DNA of 59,193 nucleotides, taken from assembly GCA_016932995.1 (NCBI GenBank), contig JAFGBU010000028.1, positions 1 through 59,193 of the forward strand. The letters run 5' to 3'. Positions 25,571-26,914 of this stretch are shown one piece after another (the stretch's first letter is position 1; each line of letters begins with the position of its first letter). A program made the translations under genes and the position numbers. The notes under the pieces are model-generated. The model made no database searches. It had not been told where the DNA came from and worked only from the letters and a program-made list of their open reading frames with translations. The stretch is from Desulfovibrionaceae bacterium. GTDB taxonomy: Bacteria; Desulfobacterota; Desulfovibrionia; Desulfovibrionales; Desulfovibrionaceae.

Positions 25571-26059
25571 ATGAACATGAACATAGTCTATCCCGGCGCC
25601 CGGACGCCAGTCGAACGCGCCTTTGCCCTGTCCATGACCATCAAGAGCTTCAAGGGCCGCCGCAACGTGGAGGTCCACCTGTTCAGATACGCCTGGGACA
25701 AGGCCGAGGAGGGGTCATATCCCTGGGAAAGGATAATCGGGGCCCCGATAGAGCCCGGGCTTGCGGCCGACCCGACCAGCAGCCGCCGCGTGGTCATGGA
25801 GGCGTTCACTGAACAGGAGCGCGACCAGCTCGTCGAGTATCTCAAAGCCCAGTACGGCACAAGGCTCTCGGCCATAACCTCCCTGCCGCTCGACTTCCCG
25901 GTGCCCATGGGCCTGCCCGCGCTCTCGGACATGACCGAAGGCAAGGACATCGGGTTTGTGCGCTTCGAGAAGATCCCCAGCTACAAGCTCGATTTCCCCC
26001 TGCGCGGCCTCTACGACCTGAGCCAGCACAAGCCCATGGTCGAGATCGACGAGGACTGA
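25571..26059 (+). CDS. Conserved hypothetical protein, unknown function
   Basis: A 162-residue soluble protein beginning MNMNIVYPGARTPVERAF. It has an alternating alpha/beta pattern and a Pro-rich LDFPVPMGLPALSDM loop, no cysteines, signal peptide or membrane segment, and an acidic end (VEIDED). I do not recognise a family. A GGAG site lies 7 bases before the ATG. It stands alone on the plus strand between divergent uvrB and convergent aat, with the five-hairpin block directly after its stop. Confidence 0.7.
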   Translation: MNMNIVYPGARTPVERAFALSMTIKSFKGRRNVEVHLFRYAWDKAEEGSYPWERIIGAPIEPGLAADPTSSRRVVMEAFTEQERDQLVEYLKAQYGTRLSAITSLPLDFPVPMGLPALSDMTEGKDIGFVRFEKIPSYKLDFPLRGLYDLSQHKPMVEIDED

Positions 26060-26069
26060 ACCCCGGCCG

Positions 26070-26220
26070 GCTAGGAGGTTGTTGATAAACAACCTCCGCG
26101 CGCCAGGACGGCGCGCCCGGAATCATTGGCTTCCAATGATTCCGGAGAGTTGGCAAAACCGCGTTTTCGCCAAATCGAGTTGAAAAAGTCCAGGACGGAC
26201 TTTTTCAACATTCTGCTAGG
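26070..26220. repeat. Block of five consecutive hairpins (palindromic element)
   Basis: Between the stop codons of convergent genes lie five back-to-back inverted repeats. H1 26074-26097 has GGAGGTTGTT arms. H2 26098-26116 has GCGCGCC arms and loop AGGAC. H3 26117-26145 has a 13-bp stem CCGGAATCATTGG. H4 26150-26173 has TTGGCAAAAC arms with one bulged base. H5 26179-26209 has a 13-bp stem GTTGAAAAAGTCC and loop AGGAC. GCTAGG occurs at both ends (26070-26075 and 26215-26220), like a target duplication, and the second copy supplies the aat stop codon. It would also terminate transcription from both sides. Confidence 0.85.
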
Positions 26221-26914
26221 GGTCGAAAGACCACCGGCCGCGCCGGGTGGGATGTGAAAGGGAGTCGGCGAGCATGGCCAGGAACCGGGACCTGGGGACC
26301 TCGCGGGCCCCGAACCTGAGCACGTGCCCGGTGGTCTGCTGGCAGTCCACCAGATCGAAGTCCCACTGCCCGAGCTGGCGGACCAGGCGCACAAAGGCGG
26401 CCTTGGAGGCCTCGGCCCGGTTGTGGAACATGGACTCCCCGAAAAAGGCCCGGCCCAGGGACACGCCGTAGAGCCCCCCGGCCAGGGGCCCGTCCGGGTC
26501 CCCGGCCGACCTGACCTCCACGCTGTGGGCGTAGCCCAGCTCATGCAGCCTCAAGTAGGCCCGGACCATGTCCTCGACTATCCAGGTCCCCTGCTGGCCG
26601 GGCCTGGGCGCGGCCGCGCAGGAGCGGATCACGGCCTCGAAGTCCCGGTCCATGCTGAACACGAATCCGCCCTGGTTCATGATCCGGGCCAGACGCCTGG
26701 GCACGTGCAGCCCGGAGGGCACAAGCACCGGCCTGGGGTCCGTGGACCACCACAGGATGGGCGAGTTCTCGGCGTACCAGGGGAATATGCCCCGGGCGTA
26801 GGCGGTCAAGAGCCTTTTGGGGCTCAGGTCGCCGCCCACGGCCAGCAGGCCGTCCGGGTCGGCCTCGCGCGGGTCCGGGAAGACGCAGTCCTCGAAGAGC
26901 CTGTAGATGACCAT
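26216..26914 (-). CDS. aat: Leucyl/phenylalanyl-tRNA-protein transferase
   Basis: A 232-residue enzyme that adds Leu or Phe to the N-terminus of proteins carrying basic N-terminal residues, making N-degrons for ClpS/ClpAP. Family marks are FPDPREADPDGLLAVGGDL, GIFPWY, ILWWSTDPRPVL, GTWIVEDMVRAY, LYGVSLGRAFFGESMF and DCQQTTGHVLRFGA. Full length. It lies downstream of clpS-clpA on the same strand, so the whole N-end-rule branch is encoded together. Its stop codon lies inside the GCTAGG repeat at the edge of the hairpin block. Confidence 0.96.
   Translation of the reverse strand: MVIYRLFEDCVFPDPREADPDGLLAVGGDLSPKRLLTAYARGIFPWYAENSPILWWSTDPRPVLVPSGLHVPRRLARIMNQGGFVFSMDRDFEAVIRSCAAAPRPGQQGTWIVEDMVRAYLRLHELGYAHSVEVRSAGDPDGPLAGGLYGVSLGRAFFGESMFHNRAEASKAAFVRLVRQLGQWDFDLVDCQQTTGHVLRFGAREVPRSRFLAMLADSLSHPTRRGRWSFDP

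Follow-up and report, generated by a model that had tools for sequence, protein, structure and literature searches.

REP and BIME sequences are mobilised by a RAYT transposase, MITEs form a class in which an autonomous relative with the same ends is not strictly required, and bcr1 of Bacillus cereus is a mobile intergenic repeat with a conserved multi-stem RNA structure. A REP or BIME consists of a palindrome of 20-40 bp with a GTAG-type tag (PMC3733652), and bacterial MITEs such as Correia/NEMIS, RUP, ERIC and QMITE2 are repeats of ~100-200 bp with terminal inverted repeats and a target duplication, found as dispersed, mostly intergenic copies with a very stable folded transcript (PMC2229807, PMC10969869). 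Chunjie of Geobacter uraniireducens is a further MITE, of 178-235 bp, with inverted and direct repeats and tens of copies (PMC10969869), and the CIR of Caulobacter, made of two arms and a linker, bears a conserved short motif (GANTC) at the terminal loop of its predicted RNA (PMC2229807). CsrB and CsrC are sRNA genes with many GGA sites, 22 of them in CsrB, and their RNAs fold into repeated hairpins whose loops carry CAGGA(U/A/C)G (PMC7652899).

The element that we describe lies in a window of 59,193 nucleotides, that is the whole stretch of DNA analysed (positions 1-59193 of contig JAFGBU010000028.1, assembly GCA_016932995.1, from a Desulfovibrionaceae bacterium). An initial annotation had reported five consecutive hairpins there between two convergent genes, with the loop AGGAC common to the second and the fifth, and both observations are borne out by the sequence, the hairpins H1 to H5 abutting at 26074-26209 (Table 1). 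The RNA fold of 26050-26230 has a z-score of -8.8 on the plus strand and -9.6 on the minus strand, its stability being matched by 0 of 200 shuffles on either, and the DNA fold of 26071-26219 has a z-score of -12.2, again with 0 of 200 shuffles as stable. The repeat GCTAGG that had been seen on both sides of the block and taken for a target duplication does exist, yet the word that was duplicated is the 4-bp CTAG and not GCTAGG, as comparison with other copies places the extra G of each GCTAGG in the flank on one side and in the element on the other. The right-hand repeat does supply the stop codon of aat (Leu_Phe_trans, PF03588, E 3.9e-68), as had been proposed; CTAG reads as TAG on both strands, and a lone CTAG without the element would give aat an identical stop. 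The left neighbour gene (162 aa) has no Pfam match. Within the element the right terminal inverted repeat consists of the 3' arm of H5 and the tail (CAGAATGTTGAAAAAG on the minus strand), and the apical sequence of H4 recurs, slightly changed, in several other genera. Over the window as a whole CTAG is strongly avoided, with 19 occurrences observed and 189 expected from base composition.

Table 1. Features of the element and its immediate surroundings, in window coordinates
Feature	Positions	Strand	Basis
Left copy of target duplication, CTAG (YTAR)	26071..26074	none	20 places with both ends compared
141-bp element core, H1-H5 and right tail ATTCTG	26075..26215	+	own-genome copies, alignment A1
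H1, palindrome with left terminal inverted repeat GAGGTTGTTGA	26074..26097	+	fold, end-motif search, alignment
H2, GCGCGCC-AGGAC-GGCGCGC, CsrB-like loop CAGGACG	26098..26116	+	
H3, variable stem; sister copies show inverted loop (CTT/AAG)	26117..26145	+	alignment A1
H4, apical GGCRAAACCGCGYTTTCGCC	26147..26176	+	
H5, palindrome of A-tract / GTCC-AGGAC-GGAC / T-tract	26179..26209	+	
Right CTAG copy; 26216-26218 is the aat stop codon (TAG on -)	26216..26219	none	
aat, leucyl/phenylalanyl-tRNA-protein transferase; neighbour, outside the element	26216..26914	-	Pfam

The genome search that the annotation had proposed was run on the 2.48 Mb and 49 contigs of the own genome, and the outcome that would have refuted a mobile element, a single copy with unconserved stems, did not occur. 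There are 29 places, comprising 19 near full-length copies (90-100% identity, with target duplications), 7 that are truncated at contig ends and 3 with internal deletions; since the contig-end pieces are 2 left halves and 5 right halves that may pair up, the copy number is 27-29. Exactly 141 bp separate the YTAR words in all 17 full copies with both ends visible, and in the 20 places with both ends, which include the 3 deleted forms, the two YTAR words are identical in 12, one transition apart in 6 and two transitions apart in 2, the words being CTAG, TTAG, TTAA, CTAA and decayed forms of these. The terminal inverted repeats GAGGTTGTTGA and CAGAATGTTGA are alike in 8 of 11 letters, and every one of the 34 exact end-motif matches in the own genome falls at an element. 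In the 3 short forms H2 contributes its left half and H5 its right half, the two being fused at the loop region CCRGGACGG that both hairpins have; each form is a simple deletion between direct repeats. One own-genome copy (L014) has a rearranged H1/H2 junction at its left end, with H1 lengthened into a larger palindrome.

The element therefore offers the features of a MITE, being a short non-coding repeat in dispersed copies with terminal inverted repeats and a target site duplication, and we have little doubt that by anatomy it is one. It resembles bcr1 in being a mobile intergenic repeat with a conserved multi-stem structure and differs from it in ends, target and host; we know of no GGA-loop theme in bcr1. 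The description 'REP/MITE-like' given by the initial annotation thus holds for its MITE half only, as a REP or BIME mobilised by RAYT was rejected on anatomy alone, the unit being one of 141 bp with terminal inverted repeats and a duplicated target. In its size, ends, target duplication, dispersed and mostly intergenic copies and very stable (here predicted) fold it is like Correia/NEMIS, RUP, ERIC and QMITE2, and like Chunjie in its inverted and direct repeats and tens of copies, Chunjie being different in length; with CIR it shares a conserved short motif in a loop of the predicted RNA, although the arrangement, the motif and the host group are other. Most known MITEs, however, are one stem-loop formed from paired ends (PMC2229807), whereas the element has five local hairpins in fixed order, and unlike those MITEs its stems are fully replaced between lineages whilst two loops are kept. 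Compared with CsrB, each unit has two GGA hairpins, the units are mobile and numerous and the stems are long, with no promoter or transcript shown. MITEs are a known kind, but the five-hairpin form with GGA loops is clearly new, and no earlier description of the phylum-wide five-hairpin core was found, the main gap in that search being subscription journals.

Absence of copies at orthologous sites had been named as further support for mobility, and this is met in part: genome G532 has two elements in one locus (L180), and neither is present where this locus aligns in the sister species G489, but the flanks have diverged. At the first of these sites the intergenic stretch differs in G489 and an intact single target is not seen; the second element has AAGTAT on both sides in G532, and the diverged G489 flank lacks a clean single copy. 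A candidate empty site in g201 (G663 C1:2186059) was rejected because the sisters G491 and G573 hold different sequence there. No genome of the same genus was among the 59 relatives searched, so that the window's own site is without comparison.

The element looks to be non-autonomous, and the transposase that moves it is unidentified. No gene-bearing relative with the same ends occurs at the 34 exact end-motif matches of the own genome, and DDE_Tnp_1, the only transposase family searched for, was not found in that genome. A longer end motif gave 52 matches, spread over 8 of the 12 other genomes examined, and no autonomous parent is present in the 30 of these loci that were fetched; 29 hold the element, in one case (L234) ~200 bp from the motif according to the covariance model, and L240 is a solo end with no element. 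The assembly breaks within copies of the element at contigs C3, C7, C8, C16, C38, C39, C44, C47 and C48, and a transposon that shares these ends may therefore have gone unassembled. YTAR is also the target of the IS5 group of ISfinder, and in its 4-bp target the element agrees with an IS5-group derivative.

The annotation had offered a structured RNA as an alternative to a mobile element, to be examined by covariance analysis, and this alternative may hold, as the array proves to be conserved with strong covariation although an RNA function has not been shown; the two readings of the block are not mutually exclusive. A first covariance model, built from the 19 own copies, was run at E 0.01 against 297 genomes of the order and matched 14 (own genome included), which belong to 11 genera and two families. 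A second, built from 42 matches and run at E 1e-4 against 395 genomes of the phylum, matched 16, again with the own genome, in 12 genera and 7 families, at most eight candidates per genome being scored. Two alignments follow from these searches: A3, with 42 rows, holds matches at E 5e-6 from 46 loci given, omits the weaker matches of the order search and still counts four rows with an unrelated left half (L128, L141, L142 and L154), and A4 has 82 rows, of which 80 are distinct. Stem sequences differ between lineages and yet pair, with double changes in 53 of 54 pairs in both A3 and A4; co-varying cells number 510 in A3 against 127 in shuffles, and 1001 in A4 against 271, and the covariation is lost when the partners are slid by 1-3 columns. 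A3 and A4 were fitted to the structure and hence lean towards pairing. In the ungapped own-genome alignment A1, double changes occur in 6 of 54 pairs, with 12 co-varying cells against 5.4 in shuffles.

Other search keys were less productive. Exact CCAGGACGG word pairs matched in 15 of 247 genomes, but judged by their letters the matches are elements in just two of these, the own genome and G016, this key finding few elements because the loops vary. A pattern scan from H4 to H5 returned 13 stretches on named contigs, from UBA6814, Desulfovibrio sp. Kf353_bin37, Im510_bin1, two Paracoccus and one Spirochaetales record; seven loci were scored with the model (6 of the 13 stretches together with L034), of which L164, L165 and L172 hold elements, and both Paracoccus loci and the Spirochaetales locus were discarded as they have no model match at E 0.1. 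The locus L034 (G004, ~1501-1740) carries a solo end, CTAGCAGACTGTTGAAAAA, behind which stand hairpins that have CAGGAC as their loop (CCGCAGGACAGCGG, CCCCAGGACGGGG); it has no covariance-model match at E 0.1 and is maybe a distant arrangement. The ends themselves vary by lineage when compared by eye, most being CAGNNTGTTGAAAAA with YTAR, those in G026 and G415 being of the TACCA type with TGA, and those in G489 and G532 GATGAMTTC, with a 6-bp duplication in one copy. No Rfam family is matched above gathering on the element, either in the window, where a tRNA elsewhere is the one match, or in 15 element loci, and with permissive settings the stretch 25900-26400 yielded only 9 weak matches, the best at E 0.016 and all below gathering.

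The loops of H2 and H5 behave differently from the others. Among 123 elements (A3 and A4 without L314, a second fetch of L190), GGA stands in the loop of H2 in 106 and of H5 in 117, against 15 for H1, 5 for H3 and 2 for H4, whereas the reverse complement TCC is found in 1 loop of H2, 0 of H5, 2 of H1, 17 of H3 and 10 of H4. The letters next to GGA vary (AGGAC, ATGGAT, ACGGAT, AAGGAT, AGGGAT) with GGA mostly constant, and the loops read CAGGACG, CAGGATG, CAGGAAG, CATGGATG and CACGGATG, which can be summarised as CA(N)GGANG. The first model was built on copies with AGGAC and might favour GGA, so a further model was made with both loops masked, from 17 of the 19 own copies (two gapped rows were dropped), and applied to every one of the 39 loci of A3 that lie outside the own genome and to 46 of the 81 in A4. 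It recovered elements on the same strand in 85 of 85 loci (E 4e-21 to 1.5e-5), with GGA in the loop of H2 in 70 of 86 and of H5 in 83 of 86, and in 13, 4 and 1 for H1, H3 and H4. The loop of H4, under the same models, turns over between lineages and serves as an internal control.

How the stems stay paired is a separate matter. Template switching is described as a process that homogenises arms and inverts spacers (PMC8604942; PMC8794818), and changes of the corresponding kind are found within genomes: fully compensated columns number 149, a figure inflated by subfamilies that share a genome, against 148 one-sided ones (47 G:T, 33 A:C and 68 others), in the own copies L010 and L015 GC has become TA in both arms together, and the loops of H3 and H5 occur inverted among the own copies, that of H5 in 2 of 19. 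Such changes speak for template switching as the means by which the arms are corrected. RNA-level selection on the stems is not clearly visible, as an excess of G:T over A:C is not clear (12 against 12 columns in A1; 47 against 33 elsewhere, p 0.15), and this asymmetry, not being significant, was abandoned as a proof of such selection. The fitted alignments taken whole do show 80 G:T against 36 A:C and 118 against 78, a lean that the fit may cause.

It is very probable that the locus is a mobile element with a conserved five-hairpin array. Since template switching leaves the fixed loops unexplained, arm correction for the stems together with selection for the GGA loops is the simplest joint reading. 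We infer that a transposase acting in trans, now absent or unassembled, would have moved the element; that the stems may stay perfect largely because replication template switching copies one arm from the other; and that the loops could persist because transcribed copies offer a pair of GGA hairpins to a protein that binds RNA, for which CsrA is the most plausible candidate. By inserting at stop codons and gene ends the element leaves the genes intact, and its copies would come to lie at the 3' termini of transcripts. The naming of CsrA is the tentative step, inferred against contrary evidence and without data on transcription or binding, and we would sooner doubt it than assert it. What makes the element of wider use is that five palindromes stay perfectly paired through complete sequence turnover with two loops fixed, a clean natural case in which mutation-driven arm correction can be distinguished from selection on an RNA loop within one element.

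The rival that survives best is that of a purely selfish MITE, in which the hairpins would be a by-product of template switching with no RNA function and the loops merely ancestral sequence, and this remains a real possibility, if one short of probable. It would sit well with within-genome double changes being as common as one-sided ones (with the inflation already noted), with the inverted loops, with the lack of an orientation bias reported below and with the unclear excess of G:T. Template switching does not protect loops, though, and yet GGA is kept on one strand in H2 and H5 whilst its neighbours vary and the loop of H4 turns over.

The conserved array with its GGA loops suggests a working RNA, perhaps a CsrA decoy, although transcription and binding are both inferred. 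H2 and H5 meet the CsrB-like criterion of GGA in hairpin loops of the CAGGA(U/A/C)G type, the Rsm form of this loop being CANGGANG. The RNA-protein part could also stand alone, the element then being a dispersed CsrA decoy or a cis-acting CsrA site borne by a transposon, which we hold to be unlikely but within reach. The loops fit the sequence carried by CsrB hairpins, with variable letters around a fixed GGA, and the SELEX consensus of CsrA is RUACARGGAUGU, but in the SELEX ligands runs of paired bases are mostly no longer than 4, and a very stable stem may be unfavourable to binding (PMC7652899), whilst the stems of the element are long and very stable. A CsrA gene is present in the own genome and, of 27 further genomes in which the model has matches, in 26 (a 28th, G233, was left aside), a share for which no base rate in the phylum was established; G415, which is 97% complete and has elements, gave no CsrA match. 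Further points against are the inverted H5 loop in some own copies, the want of an orientation bias, G:T not being clearly above A:C in the stems, and the lack of any transcription data. In Geobacter sulfurreducens, moreover, it is FliW that is reported to antagonise CsrA. No member of the CsrB/CsrC family of sRNAs is characterised in that species (PMC13407953).

A broader form of this idea is that of a transposon class spreading CsrA-binding RNA through the phylum, its copies, tens to a genome, acting as two-site GGA hairpin modules and jointly as a mobile and dispersed counterpart of CsrB, with the core carried by different transposon ends (CAGNNTGTTGA with YTAR; TACCA with TGA; GATGAMTTC) because the RNA module itself is kept. 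We regard this as speculative and rather unlikely. If the GGA hairpins do bind CsrA, the decoys of this regulator would be supplied by a transposon.

The insertion sites bear on another rival, that of a mobile bidirectional terminator or insulator in which H5, with its A-tract, short GC stem and T-tract, would stop transcripts of either strand at gene ends. At 15 of the 29 own-genome sites the duplicated YTAR takes in a neighbour's stop codon (that of aat was added by hand, as our home-made gene caller had picked a shadow frame there); YTAR contains TAG or TAA, so that insertion there leaves the gene intact. For comparison, the window has 64 YTAR words, of which 11 overlap the stop codon of a called gene, 21 fall in coding sequence and 32 between genes, the stop-overlapping share of the non-genic words being 11 of 43. 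These sites at stop codons speak for a terminator, as do the surplus of 3' over 5' gene ends among those facing own-genome elements (30 to 17), the A:T pairs adjoining the GC stem of H5, kept in 39-41 of the 42 rows of A3, and the precedent of the terminator-like SPRITE elements (PMC10969869). Outside the own genome, however, 5' and 3' gene ends hardly differ in how often they face the element (52 against 60, p 0.51). A consensus scan called 0 terminator sites inside the element, the T-tract of H5 lies within its stem, and four other stems and the GGA loops would be left unexplained, so that we consider this reading distinctly unlikely. With respect to its neighbours the element has no strand preference, neither in the own genome (left reading in 13, right reading in 17, with the window's copy corrected) nor at 64 sites in 17 other genomes (33 against 27, p 0.52). 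A chance or local cluster of terminators, for which only the place between convergent genes speaks, can be set aside as it is refuted by 27-29 copies with exact ends and by the phylum-wide covariation.

Two further observations were made at loci mentioned above. In G491 and G573 (L215/L216), at the position that matches the G663 site, other sequence stands between YTAR ends, as if one element had taken the place of another. At ~975-1124 of L180 in G532 lies a different dispersed repeat of ~150 bp with more than 40 matches in the sister G489, which folds as one long hairpin and represents another MITE-like family.
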